From Bacteroidota bacterium (GTDB taxonomy: Bacteria > Bacteroidota > Bacteroidia > Palsa-965): a stretch of DNA of 63,291 nt. Shown one piece after another: positions 1,857 to 60,412 of the stretch. The stretch covers positions 1 to 63,291 of the forward strand of contig JAAFIA010000015.1 of assembly GCA_013298545.1 (NCBI GenBank), written 5' to 3'. The position numbers and the translations under genes were made by a program. The notes under the pieces were generated by a model, which saw nothing but the letters and a program-made list of their open reading frames with translations, was not told the DNA's origin and searched no databases. Numbering within the stretch: position 1 is the first letter of the stretch; the number at the start of each line of letters is the position of its first letter.

Positions 1857-1873
1857 AGAGCCTGTTTAAAATT
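1857..1873. repeat. Solo copy of a MITE terminal sequence
   Basis: The 16-mer AGAGCCTGTTTAAAAT is identical to the left end of the 165-bp inverted-repeat element at 46916-47080. Here it occurs alone and covers the stop codon of the TonB-dependent receptor gene (TAA at 1866-1868 on the minus strand). No partner end was found nearby. It may be a remnant of an excised or decayed element. Confidence 0.5.
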
Positions 1874-4238
1874 CGATGCGATAATTCAATACAGGAATCA
1901 AAGGTGCTTGATAGTTGTATTTTATTGTATTTGAAGAAGGATCGAAATAGCGGTTAAAAACATTTTTACGATTTGTTGTGTTTTGAATATCGAGCGAAAC
2001 GCGGGTGGTGCATTTTTTGAAATTGCGTTTCAAACTCACGCCCACATCAAGACGCAGGTAATCGGAATTTTTTTCTTGAAATGATTTTGCGGGATCTTTG
2101 TATGTACCACCAAGCGCAATTGACTTTTCAAGATCAATAGGTGTATCATAAAAACCACCGGCCCAGATTAGTTTTGCATTAACGCCAATGACACGACCTT
2201 TTCTTTTCTCGCTGAGTGTATATTCTTTGCCTCCTGTAAACGTAAAATTATATTTTCCGTTGAAGCGTGAATTGCGCCAAACACCATCCAATGCTTTATA
2301 TTTCGATTCGTAAAGCGATGCTGATGCAATCATGTACGAACCACCAGAGAAGAATTTTTCGAGCGTGAGTTCTAGTCCATAATTTTTGCCTGCTCCGGCA
2401 TTCACCAAACTATCGGTGTAAGAACCAGCAATCATGTTGTTTACGGCAAAAGGATCGGTCATGCTATTCTTTACGGCAAGATCTGAAAGCCATTGATAAT
2501 AGGTTTCTGCTTTTATCCGAAAATTTTCGCCAAATGGATGATCGTATGCCAAAACCAAATGGTGCGCTTTTTGAAATTTCAGTTTGGTATTCGGACGAAC
2601 AATTGAGCCATCGGTTAATGTAGCTTGCGCAAAATATGCCGGAAGCGGTAAGTGCTGGCTGTGTAAGCCATAACCAAGACTGATGTTATGAAGTGGTGCC
2701 AATTCCCAACGCACAGCCGCACGTGGCTCGATGCTTGTATTTCCGTTGAGTGCCAAATACAAACTATGAAAACCAGCGTTGATCGTCAACCGTTCTGTGG
2801 GGCGAAATTGCCATTGCGAATAGGCTTGGAGCGTTTGCGTAGTGCCATCTTGTTTTAGGTTTTCTACCAACTGATTTACTTCGGGATCGTAAACGCCTTC
2901 GTATAATGAAAAGCCGAGTTGATTGAAAACGATTCCGCTGCGAATGGTATTTTTTGCATTTAGTTTGGTGGTCAATGTTGCCGAACCGGTTAAGCGTTTG
3001 GTGTCGTTAAATTCGCTGTTTTCTAATCGAAGCGAATAATCGTCTTGGGTGTATTCGCTTTTGTATTTGATGTTTACATCCGAAACTCCGGCAACAATTT
3101 TCAGCAACGATTTTTCACCAAGCTGATTGGTCCACGAAGCACCATTAAAAAGTGTATTGCTTATAAATTTACTGGTATAGCGATCGTCTTCTGATTCCCA
3201 TTCCAGCGAATCTGTTTTCGCCCGATAAGTCTCGCCGCTCAATCCGCCAAATCCAAAAAACGCAAATGTTCCGAATCGTTCTGTTGGCAAGACCACATTG
3301 TACGACAAGTCTTGAAATGTTGTAATGCCCACATCGTCTCCAAAAACGCCAGCTTTACTGAGTAGTCCCAGTGTAGAATATCTATAATTGATGAGATACG
3401 AACCGTTGTGTTTTTTGGAGAGTGGTCCTTCGGCAGCAAAATCAACACCCAAGACTCCTGCTTGAAATGTATATTCTGCTTTTTCGTTATTTCCGGAGCG
3501 CAGCCGCAAATCGAAAACACCCGATGTTGCATTTCCGTATTCAGAAGCAAATGCGCCCGTCATAAAATCTGAATTGGCAAGTAGTTGTGTACTGAGAATA
3601 GAAATACCGCCTCCAGCAGCACCGGGTATTGAAAAGTGGTTTGGATTAGGAATATCAATTCCTTCCATACGCCACAATAAGCCGCTAGGTGCATTGCCAC
3701 GAATGACAATAAAATTATTGCCATCGCTCGCCGTTGATACGCCTGCATAAGCGAGTGCCGCACGTGCAGGGTCGTTTACGGCGGCTGCGAAACGTCGTGT
3801 TTCTTCGACCGAGAACGTGCGGGCACTAACTGTTGACATGGAATTGAGTGGCTTTTTCTTATCGTCTTTGGCGGTAATAACCACTTCATTTGTTTGATTG
3901 ATTTGCTCTTCGAGTTCGATATTCAAAACCAATTCTTTGCCAGAACTTACGTCCACATCGTTGAGCAAAATTTCGCGGTAACCAATCATGTTGATTTTAA
4001 AACTGTGGCGACCGACAGGAATTTCGTTGAGCTTGAATTGTCCATTGATGTCGGTTGCTGTGCCTTTTGGCGGCACGAGGTCTGTAACTGCAACCAATGC
4101 ACCCATGAGTGGCGTTTTAAGTTGCTTATCGACAATTTTCCCGCGTACGGTTTGTGTCCATGTTTGCGCTGGCAGAGCAACACCGAATAAGAAAAGAAGT
4201 AATAAGGTAAGAACTGCTGCAAGTGTGATCGATTTCAT
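1866..4238 (-). CDS. TonB-dependent receptor with carboxypeptidase-regulatory-like N-terminus
   Basis: Outer-membrane active-transport receptor of 790 residues. A signal peptide (hydrophobic about 5-24, ending near PAQ) is followed by a CarboxypepD_reg-like/transthyretin-like domain (about 30-110; VRGKIVD, DINGQF, GYRE). A plug domain comes next (about 120-240; NNFIVIRGNAPSGLLWRMEG), then a long C-terminal beta-barrel ending in F (YRIEF). I chose the ATG at 4238 because the signal peptide begins MKSITL; an in-frame ATG at 4256 would add six residues. There is no STN domain, so it is a transporter and not a FecA-type transducer. It lies 84 bp downstream of the GxQ-repeat protein and 24 bp upstream of the DUF2807 lipoprotein, probably in one operon. 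The substrate cannot be read from sequence. The stop codon lies inside a repeat fragment. Confidence 0.9.
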   Translation of the reverse strand: MKSITLAAVLTLLLLFLFGVALPAQTWTQTVRGKIVDKQLKTPLMGALVAVTDLVPPKGTATDINGQFKLNEIPVGRHSFKINMIGYREILLNDVDVSSGKELVLNIELEEQINQTNEVVITAKDDKKKPLNSMSTVSARTFSVEETRRFAAAVNDPARAALAYAGVSTASDGNNFIVIRGNAPSGLLWRMEGIDIPNPNHFSIPGAAGGGISILSTQLLANSDFMTGAFASEYGNATSGVFDLRLRSGNNEKAEYTFQAGVLGVDFAAEGPLSKKHNGSYLINYRYSTLGLLSKAGVFGDDVGITTFQDLSYNVVLPTERFGTFAFFGFGGLSGETYRAKTDSLEWESEDDRYTSKFISNTLFNGASWTNQLGEKSLLKIVAGVSDVNIKYKSEYTQDDYSLRLENSEFNDTKRLTGSATLTTKLNAKNTIRSGIVFNQLGFSLYEGVYDPEVNQLVENLKQDGTTQTLQAYSQWQFRPTERLTINAGFHSLYLALNGNTSIEPRAAVRWELAPLHNISLGYGLHSQHLPLPAYFAQATLTDGSIVRPNTKLKFQKAHHLVLAYDHPFGENFRIKAETYYQWLSDLAVKNSMTDPFAVNNMIAGSYTDSLVNAGAGKNYGLELTLEKFFSGGSYMIASASLYESKYKALDGVWRNSRFNGKYNFTFTGGKEYTLSEKRKGRVIGVNAKLIWAGGFYDTPIDLEKSIALGGTYKDPAKSFQEKNSDYLRLDVGVSLKRNFKKCTTRVSLDIQNTTNRKNVFNRYFDPSSNTIKYNYQAPLIPVLNYRIEF

Positions 4239-4322
4239 CTGATCGGAAGTAAGCATAGCGTTTTTTTATTTGAATGAAATGGGAGATGAAAATTGTTCGC
4301 AGCAATTTTGTGTTGTGTTTTT

Positions 4323-5414
4323 TTAGAAGAAACGGATGGCAGCACCAAAGCCAAACCAAGCTTTTACATTCCAACGGTTATCATACGTTTGTGTAAATCC
4401 GTAGTATGGTGGAAATTGGTTGACGGGTAATTCTCCTGCTTGGGTACGCACATCATTGACAAAAACGTTGAATGTTGGTCCGGCAGCAATGGATATTTTT
4501 TGGGCGAGATGAAAATCAAATGGTGCTTCGATTTTAATCCATTCGCTGGTACGTGTATTGAATCCGCCGCGGTTGACGTGTGCAGTACTGAGTTCGATGG
4601 CGGCATCCAAACGTTTAGAAATCGACCAAGCAGTTCCAATGCCATAACCGATAGACCAGTATGGATCGCGCGGGCGATAGTCGATACCAACAAGTAAATT
4701 GTTGTGAAATATTTTGCTACCGCTACGAAACGCTGCATTGATGGGCATGGTTTCATTCCATCCCAATTCGAGTTTATGGTAACCATGACGGGCATAACTG
4801 AACACACCAATCATAGCACCCGAAACACTATCAGCAAAATTGAATACTCCAATTTGTACGCCTTTTACATTTCGTGCATAGTTGACAAAGCCACTGATTT
4901 GTGCGCCTTGCACGGTGCCAAAAGCGATGTTGAGTGCTCCGGCGGTTTGAAGGCCACGTACATGTTTCGCGATGTTCACGCTTCCGGCCATTTGAAGTGC
5001 TTCGACGGTTCCGCCGCAAACATTCGCCGTTCCTGAAACTTGTGCGCCATAAATATCGCCACCGGCCATGTTTAATGTTCCTGCAATTTGCGCCCCGCGA
5101 ACTGATTTGGTGGCAATGTTCATGACACCACCAATTTGTGCACCATCAACACTATCCATAGCTAAATTGCCAATGCCTGCCATCTGAAAACCACGCATAT
5201 AACCTGTTGACATATTGAAACAGGCCGAAAGTTGCGATCCGTAAAACCGATTTTGAGCCACATTGGCGATGATCGCCACTTGTGCATTGGTGCTCGAAAC
5301 GCCTAAGATCGAGTAGTTGGCTTGCTGATTTGGATTGGTGAGCAAGGTATCAGGAGTGGCCATCGCGAATGCGCTGATAGCACAAGTGAACGAGAGAAGA
5401 GCTAAACGTTTCAT
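4323..5414 (-). CDS. GxQ-repeat outer-membrane protein without STN domain
   Basis: Protein of 363 residues with a signal peptide (about 1-20). A block of about nine tandem units of 14-16 residues follows (about 72-215) with consensus V-x-G-x-Q-[MIV]-[AS]-G-x-x-N-[IL]. The C-terminal region (about 220-363) looks like beta-barrel strands and ends in RFF. The repeats resemble those of proteins I know as LA_2272-type surface repeat proteins; the fold is unproven but a beta-solenoid fits. It is a clear paralogue of the protein at 7232-9277: the repeats match and so do barrel motifs (IGYGIG, SIAAGPTFN, AIRFF), but it lacks the STN and carboxypeptidase-like domains. The ATG at 5414 was chosen for its signal peptide. 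It is divergent from the sigma gene, with a TAGGGGT motif about 45 bp upstream of the start. Confidence 0.75.
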   Translation of the reverse strand: MKRLALLSFTCAISAFAMATPDTLLTNPNQQANYSILGVSSTNAQVAIIANVAQNRFYGSQLSACFNMSTGYMRGFQMAGIGNLAMDSVDGAQIGGVMNIATKSVRGAQIAGTLNMAGGDIYGAQVSGTANVCGGTVEALQMAGSVNIAKHVRGLQTAGALNIAFGTVQGAQISGFVNYARNVKGVQIGVFNFADSVSGAMIGVFSYARHGYHKLELGWNETMPINAAFRSGSKIFHNNLLVGIDYRPRDPYWSIGYGIGTAWSISKRLDAAIELSTAHVNRGGFNTRTSEWIKIEAPFDFHLAQKISIAAGPTFNVFVNDVRTQAGELPVNQFPPYYGFTQTYDNRWNVKAWFGFGAAIRFF

Positions 5415-5458
5415 GTTTTTGATGTTGTTTGCTCTCATGACCAGCTAAAAGGGGATTC

Positions 5459-5485
5459 ACCCCTACGCCAGTTGAAAATATTTTT
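5459..5485 (-). promoter_or_regulatory. Candidate ECF-sigma promoter for the GxQ-repeat/TBDT operon
   Basis: On the minus strand TAGGGGT (5459-5465) is preceded by an A/T-rich stretch (AAAAATATTTT). The same arrangement occurs on the plus strand before the sigma gene. I infer a shared promoter or operator class, and I recall that similar GGGGT elements often precede FecI-type genes in Bacteroidota. The GGGG also pairs with CCCC in a 5-bp hairpin (5450-5464). Confidence 0.45.
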
Positions 5486-5512
5486 GTTTTTCTTCTTTTC
5501 AGGAAGTTTTTT

Positions 5513-5539
5513 AAAAATTTTAAGGAAGGGCATAGGGGT
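5513..5539 (+). promoter_or_regulatory. Candidate ECF-sigma promoter for the sigma/FecR/STN operon
   Basis: TAGGGGT (5533-5539) is preceded at about 20 bp by AAAAATTTT, mirroring the minus-strand element at 5459-5485. It lies 107 bp upstream of the preferred sigma start (5647) and 14 bp upstream of an alternative ATG (5554). It is compatible with autoregulation by the encoded sigma factor; this is inference from motif repetition only. Confidence 0.45.
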
Positions 5540-5646
5540 ATCTGTATTTTAATATGTCTTCTAAGTACATGAACTTGCTGCGAACACCTGTTTCATCGGA
5601 TTCAAGTCCGACTTATCTTTACCGCTCCGGACAGGATTTGAATCGT

Positions 5647-6237
5647 ATGGAAACAGAACAAGAATGGATTGCTGCCATCCGCAAAGGCGACGAACAGGCG
5701 TTTGAACGCATGTTTCGCGCATACCATGCGGCTTTGTGTAGGCATGCTGTACGTTTGCTCGAAGATGCAGAAGATGCAGAGGAAGCGGTACAGCAGGTTT
5801 TTTTGAAAATATGGGAGCGTCGCGAGGCTTTTGAGATTACAGTTGCTTTAAAAGCATATTTGTATCGCGCGGTTCACAATGCTGGTCTGAACATGATTGA
5901 ACGAAAAAAACGTGAACGCAACCACCAACAAGCAGAATTGCATGTGGTTCATCGCTCAGAAGATGCTGTTCCAGAAATGCGTCGTAAGGAATTGGAAACG
6001 GCTATTCAGCAAGCCATTCAAACCTTGCCCGAACAATGTCGGCGCGTTTTTGAATTGAGTCGTTTTGAAGAATTGAAATACCGCGAGATTGCCGATACGT
6101 TGGGTATTTCCATCAAAACAGTCGAAAATCAAATGGGTAAGGCCCTGCGTTTGTTGCGCGAGCGGCTCGCTCCTTTTCTATCGGTGTTTGGCGTTTTAAC
6201 TATTCACGAATTGCTTAACCTCTTTTTTCACTCATGA
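5647..6237 (+). CDS. ECF-type RNA polymerase sigma factor (FecI-like, Bacteroidota group)
   Basis: Sigma factor of 196 residues that would direct RNA polymerase to a small regulon. Region 2 is seen at about 18-85 (FERMFRAYHAALCRHAVRLL, then VFLKIWERRE) and region 4 with its helix-turn-helix at about 115-170 (LPEQCRRVFELSRFE, then YREIADTLGISIKTVENQMGKAL). I prefer the ATG at 5647 (METEQEW) because it gives the usual family length; an in-frame ATG at 5554 would add 31 low-complexity residues. The stop overlaps the anti-sigma start (ATGA), so the two are translationally coupled. The partner is the FecR-like protein immediately downstream. Likely targets are its own promoter and the divergent operon, both bearing TAGGGGT. 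Confidence 0.92.
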   Translation: METEQEWIAAIRKGDEQAFERMFRAYHAALCRHAVRLLEDAEDAEEAVQQVFLKIWERREAFEITVALKAYLYRAVHNAGLNMIERKKRERNHQQAELHVVHRSEDAVPEMRRKELETAIQQAIQTLPEQCRRVFELSRFEELKYREIADTLGISIKTVENQMGKALRLLRERLAPFLSVFGVLTIHELLNLFFHS

Positions 6238-7226
6238 ACGTTTCTGAAGAAAACACCATCGATACCTTGCTTGCGCGCTACCTCGCAAACGAGTGTGATA
6301 CGTCGGAAAAATTGCAGGCGGAAGCATGGATTGCGGCATCGCCCGAAAATAAATTATACTTCGATGGTTTACATCAAATTTGGAACGATGCTTCGGAAAC
6401 GGATGCTTCGCATTTCAATACGGATGCGGCTTGGAATCGGTTGCAAAGTAGTATGCACGGAAATACGGCTTCTGCCAATACGTTTGCATTGTGGAAAGTT
6501 GCGGCTTCCGTTGCGGCATTTTTAATAATCGGAGTTCTGACTTATACACTTATTAAAGATGATGTTGTCGAAATTCCACAAGTGGCTTTTTCGACTACGG
6601 ATAAAATTCAAAATGGTATTTTGCCCGATGGTAGCAAAATTGCATTGAATGTCCATTCGCAACTTAATTATCCAAAATCATTTGATGGAAATACGCGTGA
6701 GGTTGAATTGAAAGGGCAAGCGTTTTTTGATGTGGCGCATGATGCTACGCATCCATTCATCATTCACACGAATGCAATTGATATTCGTGTTGTTGGAACG
6801 TCGTTTGATGTAAAAGCCTATCCCAATTCGGATAGCGCGTTGGTGAGTGTGGTTTCTGGAAAAGTAAAATGTTATACGGGAACAGACACAACGGTTTTAA
6901 CGGCTGGACAACAAATCGTTTTCAGAAAAAGCAAAAAAGAATTTGTTAGCCCAGAAACGGTTGTTGACAATACACAATCTTGGCGCACACGTTTGTTTAA
7001 GTTTGATCGCAAGCCGCTTGCTGATGCGTTGCGCGAAATTGCTGTCTCTTTTCAAGTGAAGATCAACGTTCCAGAAGGATTAAATAAGTGTTTACTAACA
7101 CTCGATTACGACACCAATCTGCAAACGGTTGAAGAAGTGCTTGACCTCATCCAAGAATCGTATCCGACAACACATTGGAACCGACAGGGCGATGTGATTA
7201 TCTTTGAAGGTGAGGCTTGTCCGTAA
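6234..7226 (+). CDS. FecR-family anti-sigma factor
   Basis: Inner-membrane anti-sigma factor of 330 residues. The N-terminal cytoplasmic part (1-80; YLANECDTSEKLQAEAWI) binds the sigma factor in this family. One transmembrane helix follows (about 88-108, ending VLTYTLI), then a periplasmic FecR domain (about 120-215; LPDGSKIALN, VELKGQAFFDVAHD, VVGTSFDVKAY) and a C-terminal DUF4974/STN-like domain (about 255-325; KFDRKPLADALREIA). In FecI/FecR systems the periplasmic part contacts the STN domain of an outer-membrane transducer. Here the next gene supplies an STN domain, but on a non-TonB-receptor protein. It overlaps the sigma gene by 4 bp, and the next gene's ATG lies 5 bp after its stop. 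Confidence 0.93.
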   Translation: MNVSEENTIDTLLARYLANECDTSEKLQAEAWIAASPENKLYFDGLHQIWNDASETDASHFNTDAAWNRLQSSMHGNTASANTFALWKVAASVAAFLIIGVLTYTLIKDDVVEIPQVAFSTTDKIQNGILPDGSKIALNVHSQLNYPKSFDGNTREVELKGQAFFDVAHDATHPFIIHTNAIDIRVVGTSFDVKAYPNSDSALVSVVSGKVKCYTGTDTTVLTAGQQIVFRKSKKEFVSPETVVDNTQSWRTRLFKFDRKPLADALREIAVSFQVKINVPEGLNKCLLTLDYDTNLQTVEEVLDLIQESYPTTHWNRQGDVIIFEGEACP

Positions 7227-7231
7227 ACTGT

Positions 7232-9277
7232 ATGCTGCTGCGCATTTTTATTTTCTTTTTTTGTTTTTTGAGCTTGCATGGTGCGGCACAAACTTCTACA
7301 CCTCCAACGGAACGTATGGTCTCGGTTGTTTGTGTGAATCGTTCGGCTTCCGAAGTATTGAACGATTTATCGCAACAGGCAAAATTTTTCTGGTCGTACG
7401 ATTCGCGTTTGGTTGATCCGAAAAAATTGGTTACGCTGAACGAAAAAAACATTACGGTTCGTCGTGCGATTGCGTTAATTTTTGATGGTAAAATTTCATG
7501 TCGTTCGAAGGGGAATCATTGTATTTTATCGGCCACGCCTGAACCACTTGCAGATGATGTGGTTTCGCCTCCACGCAAATTGACTTATACGGTTGGTGGC
7601 TACATTACGGATATAGAAACGGGCAATCGGATTCCATATACAACGGTTTACGATAGCATCAGTTTGCATTCGGCATTGAGTGATGAGTGGGGGTTTTATC
7701 AATTGGAACTGGATGCTTCGCGCACGCCGGTGAAATTAAAATCGAGTCGTTTGAATTATTACGATACGTCGTTTGTGGTTGTTCCATCGGCCAATAAAAC
7801 GGTTGACATTCAAATGCGCGCGATTCCGAAGCAAACGATTACGCGTGCTGAAATTCGGAAATTACCGAGCGATACAGGGAATGCGTTTGGGCGTATTGAT
7901 TCGGTTCAAGTAGCGGATTATAAAAAATCGCGTCGTGGTTTGGATCGTTTTCCGTGGGTCGATTCGCTGGCTGGTTTTGAGCAGGCAATGCGTTCGCGCA
8001 ATTTGAAAGAGACGTTGCAAAGTGGTGGACAGGTTTCGTTGTTGCCTTTTATTTCAACGAATGGCCGGTTGAGTGGTAGTGTAGTGAATAAATTTTCGTT
8101 GAATATTATTGCGGGTTATGCGGGTGGTGTTGATGGATTTGAGGTGGGTGGTGCTGCGAATATTGTGCGTGGAGATGTGCGTGGGGCGCAGGTTGCGGGG
8201 GCGGTGAATTTGGTGGGGGGCAATGTGCGGGGGGCGCAGCTTGCGGGCTTGCTCAATTTGAATGTTGGGACGTTGCGTGGGGTGCAATTGAGTGGTGGTG
8301 CAAACATCAACATGGACAGCTTGCGCGGGATTCAGGTGGCGGGTGGATCGAATTTTAATTTTGGAAGTATGTATGGCATTCAAGTGGCGGGTGGTTCGAA
8401 TTTTGTGAAAGGGGATGTGGATGGTTTGCAAGTGGCGGCTACGGCGAATGTTACGTTTGGTACAGTCAATAAAGTGCAGGTGGCGGGTTGGGGAAATTAT
8501 GCGCGGGGGGTGCGGGGCATTCAGGTTTCTGGGAGTGTAAATATTGCGCGTGAAATGATGGAGGGTTTGCAAGTGAGTGGTTTTCTAAATCGTGCGGGGC
8601 ATGTGCGGGGGTTTCAGGTTTCGGGTTTTATAAACAGTTGTAGAGATACAACAACCGGTGTACAAATTGCTGCGTTTCTCAATGCCGCTGGGCGTTTGTC
8701 GGGCTACCAGTTTGGTAGTGTCAATGTGGCGCGTGAGCTGAATGGGTTGCAAATTGGGATCATTAATATAACGCAACAAAAAAACGATGGGTTGCAAATA
8801 GGCTTGTTTTGCTTCGCTCGCAATGGGTTGCATCAGGTGGAATTGGCTTGTACTGAAAATTTATTTACGACGATTTCTTTTAAAACAGGTTCTACCGATT
8901 TCTACAACATTTTTACTGCGGGTCAAGGAAAATTCATCGGCGAAGATGGTGTATGGACAATTGGTTATGGCTTAGGTCATCGGTTTAAATTACCTTATGC
9001 TTTAGCCGTCGATTTGGAAGCGGTAACCAATCAGGTTAGTCGTGAGGCTCTTTCGTTATATACAAACAACTGGACATTCTTATACATGGGTTTGAGTTGG
9101 GTTCCGCTCCAAACATTTTCTGTTTCTGTTGGGCCTACGTTCAATTATTTTGTTTCGGGATCGAATGCAGATTATTTTTCCGTTTGGCATCCCAAACCTT
9201 TGCTCGAAAAAACATTTGAAACGGGAACACGGGGTAGTGGATGGATTGGTCTGCGTTGTGCAGTTCGCTTTTTTTAA
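7232..9277 (+). CDS. STN-domain GxQ-repeat outer-membrane protein, putative sensor
   Basis: Protein of 681 residues. Order of parts: signal peptide (1-20, ending GAAQ); STN-like (secretin/TonB short N-terminal) domain at about 30-100 (ASEVLNDLSQQAKFFWSYD, VRRAIALIF); CarboxypepD-regulatory-like domain at about 118-200 (VGGYITDIETGNRIPYTTV, WGFYQLEL); a linker; about 15 tandem 14-16-residue GxQ units at about 300-540 (GAQVAGAVN, GLQVSGFLN); and a C-terminal barrel-like part (about 545-681, ending VRFF). No plug domain or TonB-dependent barrel is seen. The position straight after sigma and anti-sigma suggests it signals to the FecR-like protein through the STN domain. The ATG at 7232 gives the signal peptide; a TTG at 7217 lies inside fecR. 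The repeat DNA is unusually G-rich. Domain calls are good, the sensor role is inference. Confidence 0.8.
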   Translation: MLLRIFIFFFCFLSLHGAAQTSTPPTERMVSVVCVNRSASEVLNDLSQQAKFFWSYDSRLVDPKKLVTLNEKNITVRRAIALIFDGKISCRSKGNHCILSATPEPLADDVVSPPRKLTYTVGGYITDIETGNRIPYTTVYDSISLHSALSDEWGFYQLELDASRTPVKLKSSRLNYYDTSFVVVPSANKTVDIQMRAIPKQTITRAEIRKLPSDTGNAFGRIDSVQVADYKKSRRGLDRFPWVDSLAGFEQAMRSRNLKETLQSGGQVSLLPFISTNGRLSGSVVNKFSLNIIAGYAGGVDGFEVGGAANIVRGDVRGAQVAGAVNLVGGNVRGAQLAGLLNLNVGTLRGVQLSGGANINMDSLRGIQVAGGSNFNFGSMYGIQVAGGSNFVKGDVDGLQVAATANVTFGTVNKVQVAGWGNYARGVRGIQVSGSVNIAREMMEGLQVSGFLNRAGHVRGFQVSGFINSCRDTTTGVQIAAFLNAAGRLSGYQFGSVNVARELNGLQIGIINITQQKNDGLQIGLFCFARNGLHQVELACTENLFTTISFKTGSTDFYNIFTAGQGKFIGEDGVWTIGYGLGHRFKLPYALAVDLEAVTNQVSREALSLYTNNWTFLYMGLSWVPLQTFSVSVGPTFNYFVSGSNADYFSVWHPKPLLEKTFETGTRGSGWIGLRCAVRFF

Positions 9278-22954: not shown

Positions 22955-23605
22955 ATGAAAACTGGTATTCGTTTATTGGCTGTTTTAGCCGTTTTTTGCC
23001 TCGTCTTGTTAGCATTTGGCCCGAGTCGTTTTGCTCCTGTTTTTAAAAAATCAGTGGTGCGTATTGATTCAATTGCGATTGATCAATTTGCTTCAACATT
23101 GTCTTGCGATCGTCATAAAGTTTCGAAGAATTTCAACCGCAACACGAACGATGGACAGGTAAAAATTTCCATAAGCGCGAGTGATATTGACATGACCTTT
23201 ACCAAGTCAGGAAAAGTGTTGGGTGGTGCTTGGTTGCTGCGCGATGGAAAATTTGCGGGTGGTGTTTTTGATTTGAATCTGACCGATATTTTAGAGCCTT
23301 CGATGTGGTCAAGCCGCACGGGCGCGAAGTTGCAGCGTGGGAAATTGCGCATTTTATCGTTCGATAATAAAGATGTTGCGGAAGGTTTTACGCGTGTGTA
23401 TGCCGAAATTCAATTTCCAGACACAACAGGAAAAATTTCTTTTCCGGTGGAAATGATTTATCAGGACAACAATTTTTATCCCACTGAATTGAAGGGCAAT
23501 TTTCCGATTGATGCAAAAGCGTGGCATTTATATCCGCGCGATACAACGCAAGAAATCAGCAAAGATGATTTGCTGTTTAAGCTCAAATTGGTTACGAAAA
23601 AATAG
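22955..23605 (+). CDS. YceI-like domain protein
   Basis: Protein of 216 residues with an N-terminal hydrophobic signal/anchor (about 5-24, LLAVLAVFCLVLLAFG). The body has the YceI pattern: GGAWLLRDGKFAGGVFDLNL, a central TRVYAEIQFPDTTGKISFPVEM strand pair, then NFPIDAKAWHLYPRD, and a closing SKDDLLFKLKL. YceI proteins are periplasmic lipocalin-like barrels that bind isoprenoid-type lipids; whether this one does is unknown. I prefer the ATG at 22955 (MKTGIR), because it starts the signal and follows a TATCTTTC box by 4 bp; the frame opens upstream at 22889. Confidence 0.6.
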   Translation: MKTGIRLLAVLAVFCLVLLAFGPSRFAPVFKKSVVRIDSIAIDQFASTLSCDRHKVSKNFNRNTNDGQVKISISASDIDMTFTKSGKVLGGAWLLRDGKFAGGVFDLNLTDILEPSMWSSRTGAKLQRGKLRILSFDNKDVAEGFTRVYAEIQFPDTTGKISFPVEMIYQDNNFYPTELKGNFPIDAKAWHLYPRDTTQEISKDDLLFKLKLVTKK

Positions 23606-23648
23606 GGGTTTTAAAATTTCATTTCCCATCGCACAGACGGCCTACGCA

Positions 23649-60220: not shown

Positions 60221-60412
60221 CTTTTCTCCTACGCTTCCGAAGGCTCGGAATGCAACGCGTAGGTACGAAATGCGCGTTTGCAACGCGCGTTTCACCATTT
60301 TAACAACCTACTAAATTCATCCTCCTTATTCATAAAAAACAGACTCCAGAAACGTTAGCAAGTAGCCGATAAAGCACACCCCTACACATTTCGTTTCTTC
60401 ATCTGTCATAGG

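Follow-up and report, generated by a model that had tools for sequence, protein, structure and literature searches.

Divergent TAGGGGT/GTC elements at a FecR-associated sigma factor locus as a likely ECF promoter class of Bacteroidota

Signalling systems of the Fec type, FecI/FecR/FecA in E. coli and Pup and Fpv in Pseudomonas, combine an extracytoplasmic function (ECF) sigma factor, an adjoining FecR-type anti-sigma factor and an outer-membrane protein with an N-terminal STN domain. In the accessible part of one account (PMC9249621), FecA-like receptors use their STN-type signalling domains to interact, in the periplasm, with FecR-like proteins, and fecIR is controlled by sigma-70. Here we analyse a stretch of 63,291 nucleotides (contig JAAFIA010000015.1, hereafter the window) from a 4.53 Mb draft genome (GCA_013298545.1), whose sigma factor has its closest homologues in Bacteroidota. 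Two gene sets lie back to back across a short intergenic region, and the heptamer TAGGGGT occurs in both divergent leaders. The right-hand set runs from an ECF sigma gene through a gene for a FecR-type anti-sigma factor to one for a 686-aa protein with LA_2272 repeats (LA2272A). The left-hand set encodes a shorter protein with such repeats (LA2272B), one resembling a TonB receptor and one with DUF2807. ECF sigma, FecR and STN signalling are all familiar components. By analogy the locus resembles Fec signalling in the way it would work, yet the TonB-receptor transducer that defines Fec was not recovered (in the transducer model a beta-solenoid is followed by a small C-terminal barrel of the OmpA/NspA type, and Plug is missing from the Pfam families that 40 members match), and the sigma factor appears to be autoregulated. 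Judging from sequence comparison, we consider it very likely that both TAGGGGT copies are −35 boxes of a single promoter class, pointing in opposite directions, and that the ECF sigma factor whose gene lies immediately downstream recognises this class.

Promoters made of two boxes with a GTC-type −10 are known for E. coli sigma-E and B. subtilis SigW (GGAAC and GAAAC at −35; GTC or CGTC at −10). Sigma-E promoters have about 22 nt from −35 to GTC, like the spacing found here, but the −35 of our locus is (T)AGGGGT. In the portion of PMC9723704 available, the SM6 promoters of F. psychrophilum likewise include one ECF/anti-sigma operon among the SM6 genes, whereas several SM6 targets are type IX secretion system (T9SS) components. 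The glycan-locus systems of B. thetaiotaomicron, a species credited with 50 ECF sigma factors (PMC12596196, accessible text), also use ECF sigma/anti-sigma pairs to control outer-membrane proteins; however, as far as the accessible texts go, they signal via a SusC-like transporter, and their reported non-canonical motif has TGTT near −10 (PMC12596196, PMC11501099). In the open-access literature searched, we found no earlier description of the promoter class, of the residue code or of the transducer layout presented below, and no open-access paper on this LA_2272 system, judged by title and the start of the abstract.

The comparison set was the best 80 of 530 loci encoding a relative of the sigma factor, from a scan of genome contigs. 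TAGGGGT lies at most 400 bp upstream of the sigma match in 35 of these 80. With the 35 leaders aligned on the heptamer, a second box, GTTGTCATA, stands at positions 20-28, at a constant distance from the first; base frequencies are 0.97 for T22, 0.91 for G23, 1.0 for T24, 0.71 for C25, 0.91 for T27 and 0.83 for A28, and 0.94 for T-12. Since this conserved second box keeps a set distance, TAGGGGT is best read as an ECF −35 and GTTGTCATA as its −10. The leaders thus hold what makes an ECF-type promoter: a conserved −35, a GTC-type −10, constant spacing and a place upstream of a sigma gene. No Bacteroidota housekeeping −7 box (TAnnTTTG) was found within the element. Positions −20 to −11 are 88% A+T in 34 relatives' leaders, against 58-59% in the flanking blocks, and this A/T block upstream of the −35 fits an UP element. 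From these alignments, the layout of the class is best read as an UP-like A/T block, about 10 nt, TAGGGGTA, about 13 nt and GTTGTCATA as −10.

The alignment behind the matrix and the model (R1) used in our searches held 30 of the 35 TAGGGGT leaders, four near copies and one truncated leader being omitted and the window excluded. Elements scoring at least 16 occur in 69 of the 80 loci, compared with 1 of 800 shuffled strands, and 9 of the 11 loci below the matrix threshold carry a variant element. Downstream of the 96 elements, the annotated gene met first is sigma in 39 cases, LA2272B in 18, a TonB receptor in 17, LA2272A in 7, DUF2807 in 4 and FecR in 2; nine elements have none within 900 nt. 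The 39 cases before sigma point to autoregulation. In most Pedobacter, Flavobacterium and Mucilaginibacter loci the matrix scan did not find the element directly before sigma; it lies about 1.4-3.7 kb upstream of that gene, before neighbouring genes. Gene orders vary among loci, and the element still precedes sigma, LA_2272-repeat, TonB-receptor and DUF2807 genes. TAGGGGT/GTC is therefore most likely, as far as these alignments tell, a Bacteroidota ECF promoter class found beside many relatives of the sigma gene.

An earlier note, made from the window alone, had proposed that the two leaders carry one promoter class, and had named missing conservation at homologous loci as one outcome that would speak against it; the leader alignment of related sigma genes found the motif conserved, and the element is kept as a −35/−10 promoter in related loci. 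The note had rightly placed TAGGGGT within a promoter. It had missed the −10 box, the heptamer itself being the −35, and the A/T block that it paired with the heptamer is best read as UP-like. Its suggestion of a coordinated regulon also gains from the comparison, as the same genes appear to be preceded by the element despite their rearranged order and the nine variant loci described below have changed in both leaders.

In the window, the distance from the first base of the AAAAAT block (5513 on the plus strand, 5485 on the minus strand) to the first base of TAGGGGT is exactly 20 nt in both leaders, where the note had put it at about 20 bp. The plus −35 of the sigma-FecR-LA2272A operon (5533-5539) aligns with the −35 of relatives' sigma leaders. 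Its −10 (5553-5561) has GTC at 5556-5558, an offset of 23-25 from TAGGGGT as in the relatives, whose consensus is GTTGTCATA; its UP-element-like A/T block occupies 5513-5522, 5′ of the −35, where the relatives also have an A+T-rich stretch. The minus −35 of the divergent LA2272B-TonB receptor-DUF2807 genes (5459-5465, R1 E 6.9e-4 genome-wide) is followed by a −10 at 5436-5444 with GTC at 5441-5439, the spacer being one base longer than the consensus, and is preceded by an A/T block of the same kind at 5476-5485, again matching an A+T-rich stretch in the relatives. With the matrix trained on other genomes only, the two sites score 24.6 (plus) and 24.3 (minus), and the next best in the window scores 9.0. 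Two more copies of TAGGGGT, at 23603-23609 (+) and 60378-60384 (−), score poorly, have no good A/T block and −10, and were taken as chance.

The boxes also bear on the start codons. The −10 overlaps the listed ATG at 5554 (+), which is therefore unlikely to be the start codon, 5647 being likelier; in the same way, the −10 over the listed ATG at 5438 (−) makes ATG 5414 the likelier start of LA2272B. The latter lies 51 nt past TAGGGGT, and in a wider sample the first start codons of regulon genes lie mostly 39-75 nt past it. Further into the sigma leader, TATCTTTA (5614-5621, +) is a weak candidate for a basal sigma-A type −7 box (TAnnTTTG). A TAnnTTTG-like box is present at +45 to +75 in 19 of 34 relatives' sigma leaders (shuffles: mean 2.4, maximum 8), so that a basal promoter inside the leader is backed by the relatives and weakly by the window itself, where the box is imperfect and lies further downstream than theirs.

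The variant loci connect the element to the sigma protein. Nine loci forming one clade (support 100/100) share the window-like divergent receptor/sigma layout and have no element at the matrix threshold; they carry (A/G)TCAGGGT-N-GTGTC, with 18 matches against a shuffled mean of 0.18 and maximum of 2. TCAGGGT stands in both divergent leaders in seven of the nine, and in one leader in the remaining two (L044, L058), the other leader having TAAGGGT. Residue 161 in the recognition helix of the sigma factor is Thr in this clade and Asn in 68 of the 71 others; the window sigma has Asn161 (numbered from Met 5647). A regular expression missed the residue in 13 loci, for which an alignment then gave nine Asn, two Lys, one Ser and one Gly. 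When a masked matrix that ignores the first three −35 bases is used, the third base is G in 101 of 103 elements of Asn161 loci and A in 5/5 elements of Thr161 loci (5 of the 9 loci have no element by the masked matrix). It is also A in 2/2 elements with Ser161, in two Pedobacter of a separate clade, and in 2/2 with Ala161 in genome G096, which has TAAGGGT in both divergent promoters. This last genome was singled out for its TAAGGGT, a non-Asn residue was predicted beforehand, and Ala was found. The two Ala161 loci make up another clade of their own, and −35 variants covary with residue 161 in three separate clades of the tree. In the G096 locus (L187) the element occurs at 4639 (−) and 5311 (+); it stands between the sigma and FecR genes, within what should be one operon, and before the divergent TonB receptor. 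In one search, 30 of 36 sigma matches were made into loci. L167 (Lys161) has one weak GTAGGGT, and no element was found in the stretches examined of L171 (Val161), L170 (Lys161) and L182 (Ser161).

Structural work on sigma-E and SigW offers a frame for this covariation. In the accessible text of PMC6713349, SigW T171 and sigma-E S172 contact base −34, the residue before them contacts G′ at −31, and R175/R176 contacts G−35. In an alignment made in this analysis, the window's helix T-V-E-N-Q-M-G-K has E-N-Q where SigW has K170-T171-R172 and sigma-E R171-S172-R173, so that residue 161 would occupy the same position facing −34. With the third base of TAGGGGT set at −34, Glu160 comes to face −31, which in the non-template strand is G rather than C; by this analogy, the Arg/Lys to Glu swap at 160 may fit that change. 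We regard Asn161 with G at −34, and Thr, Ser or Ala with A, as a strong candidate for a residue code. The proposal that the encoded sigma factor reads the element, made in the earlier note, is likewise favoured by −35 variants that covary with its recognition helix.

In a class sample of 198 genomes, searched at R1 E ≤ 1e-3 and LA2272A E ≤ 1e-25, the promoter model matches 27 genomes (50 places) and LA2272A 40. Both occur in 22 genomes, the motif only in 5, LA2272A only in 18 and neither in 153 (Fisher 6e-14). Of the 50 motif places, 30 are at most 6 kb from an LA2272 match, and in 29 of those cases the two share a strand. The first frames after the saved matches, named by reading their translations, encode sigma, LA2272B, TonB receptor, DUF2807, FecR, small outer-membrane proteins and a few others. 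Two tandem promoter copies about 130 nt apart (1520 and 1649, with a repeated signal-peptide start) precede an LA2272B gene in L132 (G164), and are probably a recent local duplication. The same promoter type also stands before FecR-like genes in L145 (G202) and L149 (G077), two genomes with no LA2272A match; the class may serve other FecR systems too.

The family sample comprised 12 genomes, three of which have a sigma orthologue: the source genome, G003 and G011. In G011 the element lies ahead of sigma, of the TonB receptor gene (in the form TAGGGGA), of a gene of unassigned family and, on a separate contig, of a DUF2807 gene; in G003 it lies ahead of sigma (TAGGGGA again) and of LA2272B. In both, the two operons are in tandem, not divergent, and both operons still carry the element. 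In the source genome, the best further site (contig C114, L124, 2526-2577; R1 E 7.9e-7) lies before a gene for a T9SS-sorted secreted protein, our best candidate for a distant regulon member on the sequence of its leader. A weaker site (C119, L125, 2090-2141; E 0.02) precedes an Fe/Mn superoxide dismutase gene, a candidate member less surely; an outer-membrane barrel gene follows that gene. Candidate C111 looks weak, and R1 matches on C100 and C146 of the source genome and in G007 fall inside coding frames and were set aside.

Several observations weigh against our interpretation. On the matrix both window sites score modestly (24-25), and the minus spacer has one base too many. R1 itself reaches an E of only 0.12 in G003, and the sites there were called by a simpler matrix; weak R1 matches within coding frames mean that an E of about 0.003-0.1 is no proof of a promoter. 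The matrix comes from relatives' sigma leaders and some class genomes belong to training species (three identical sigma pairs), so that the class result is not fully independent. The residue code has exceptions. In G056 (Ala161) the −35 is TAAGGGT ahead of FecR and TAGGGGT ahead of DUF2807; L072 (Gly161) has one −35 of each type; among the nine Thr161 loci, L039 carries a TAGGGG-type match as well; and a TCAGGGT-type match occurs in 5 of the 71 non-Thr161 loci. Residue 161 is moreover only one of many residue differences between the clades.

Another ECF sigma factor might read the promoter, or several with overlapping ranges might, the local sigma being only a target. TAGGGGT-type promoters before FecR-first genes (L145, L149) speak for this, as do the 5 of 27 motif genomes with no LA2272A match; overlapping ECF regulons have also been raised for Flavobacterium, in the accessible part of PMC9723704. 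However, the −35 changes together with the helix of the local sigma, and the source genome offers no evident competitor among the 11 sigma paralogues that aligned, of 14 listed: the best matrix score within about 1.5 kb of these was 7.4, and Asn161 occurs in none of the nine readable at that position (two of the 11 stop short of it). We consider this improbable, and still less probable that the loci share a separate DNA-binding regulator whose operator the element would be, with no sigma promoter at all. A conserved purine box with a partner at constant distance could indeed be a bipartite operator, and our neighbourhood survey of the 80 loci covered only the window proteins. Yet the partner contains GTC, like an ECF −10, at ECF spacing; the −35 variants track the very recognition-helix residue that touches that base in SigW and sigma-E; and, in 29 of the 30 cases with an LA2272 gene nearby, that gene and the element share a strand.

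Promoters of one class, read by the local sigma, must also be set against simpler explanations of the heptamer. By itself it is not significant: the window holds 4 copies against 1.89 expected, and 100 shuffles gave at least 4 in 14; the minus copy also sits in a small palindrome. The genome search for A/T block-N-TAGGGGT proposed in the note gave a divided result. AAAAAT-N14-TAGGGGT, a pattern chosen post hoc with the data already seen, has two exact matches in the 4.53 Mb genome, both at this locus. With one mismatch, three further matches appear elsewhere, and the count does not exceed a backwards-pattern control that differs in base composition from the real pattern (12 control matches against 5 real; 17 against 5 for TAGGGGT-N14-18-GTC). 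As neither own-genome count is significant by this control, conservation was used as the test, and its presence in 69 of 80 relatives, with one in 800 shuffled strands reaching the threshold, makes chance occurrence in an A/T-rich intergenic region barely credible. The hairpin described in the note for the minus copy, AGGGG/CCCCT, does exist as a 5-bp inverted repeat (5450-5464, arms 5450-5454 and 5460-5464) and could be an RNA regulatory element or a terminator in the leader. We find this very improbable: the repeat lies between the −35 and −10 of the minus promoter, upstream of the predicted transcription start, and hence would not be transcribed from it; it occurs in the minus leader only; and the CCCC arm has no conserved counterpart in the spacers of relatives. 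It was judged incidental.

The proteins of the right-hand set are well defined at the start of the operon. The sigma gene (5647-6237, +, start corrected to ATG 5647) encodes Sigma70_r2 (2.5e-13) and Sigma70_r4_2 (1.3e-16) domains and belongs to the TIGR02985 subfamily (169.4 bits, cut-off 126.4), which makes it an ECF (group IV) sigma factor; the anti-sigma gene follows (6234-7226, +; FecR 1.7e-17, FecR_C 3.1e-7). LA2272A (7217-9277, +) is a predicted outer-membrane transducer with a signal peptide, STN, a TTR-like domain, an LA_2272 beta-solenoid and a C-terminal barrel of the 8-strand type. Its structure alignment held 39 of 62 listed LA2272A frames plus the window member. All 40 match CarbopepD_reg_2 in Pfam and 37 match STN (best 2.9e-9), the window member itself only weakly (0.038, below cut-off); Plug is absent among the 16 Pfam families matched by the 40. 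An AlphaFold2 model (predicted local distance difference test score 86.9, predicted template modelling score 0.65) has an STN-like part matching the PupB signalling domain (TMt 0.60, E 0.06), a TTR-like domain at residues 122-204 (SusC N-terminal extension, carboxypeptidase D), a long beta-solenoid at about 304-524 and residues 535-686 that align with the 8-strand barrels OprF, NspA and OmpA (VIA Z 12.2-13.6); the Foldseek E exceeds 1e-3 for all these structural matches. LA2272A does not show the plug and large barrel of a TonB-dependent receptor, and the transducer is predicted, from this model, to be an STN domain on a beta-solenoid with a small OmpA-like barrel.

On the minus strand, LA2272B (4323-5414, start corrected from 5438) has no Pfam STN match. 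LA_2272 repeats thus occur in two proteins of the locus, STN and TTR-like domains being seen only in LA2272A, and LA2272B may be a relative built of solenoid and barrel that lacks the signalling part. The TonB-dependent-receptor-like protein with a CarboxypepD_reg domain (1866-4256, −; CarbopepD_reg_2 1.6e-15) has a Plug match of 2.9e-4, slightly short of the cut-off, and the last gene of the set encodes the DUF2807 (head GIN domain) protein (1236-1841, −; 8.2e-18).

The computation shows how the promoters are built and conserved, which genes the regulon contains, which domains the proteins have and how residue 161 varies with the third −35 base; transcription, sigma binding, and the signal and its route we infer as follows. 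LA2272A would be anchored in the outer membrane by its barrel and would present its periplasmic STN domain to FecR. An envelope signal would relieve FecR, the sigma factor would be freed or activated, and RNA polymerase carrying it would fire both promoters plus a few distant ones. The plus copy would drive sigma-FecR-LA2272A, a positive autoregulation, and the minus copy the divergent LA2272B-TonB receptor-DUF2807 genes. We hold it an even call whether a Bacteroidota-wide promoter class, with the code Asn161 for G and Thr, Ser or Ala for A, serves STN/solenoid/barrel signalling that involves no TonB receptor; the signal would thus be TonB-independent and would perhaps report the state of the outer membrane.

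Bacteroidota may encode very many ECF sigma factors, and few target promoters have been defined. Here promoter, sigma factor, regulon and residue-to-base specificity change may all be read from sequence, which would make clade regulons predictable in new genomes, and the residue code is testable by one substitution. The likely non-TonB transducer would mean a different route for an envelope signal to reach a FecR-type anti-sigma factor.
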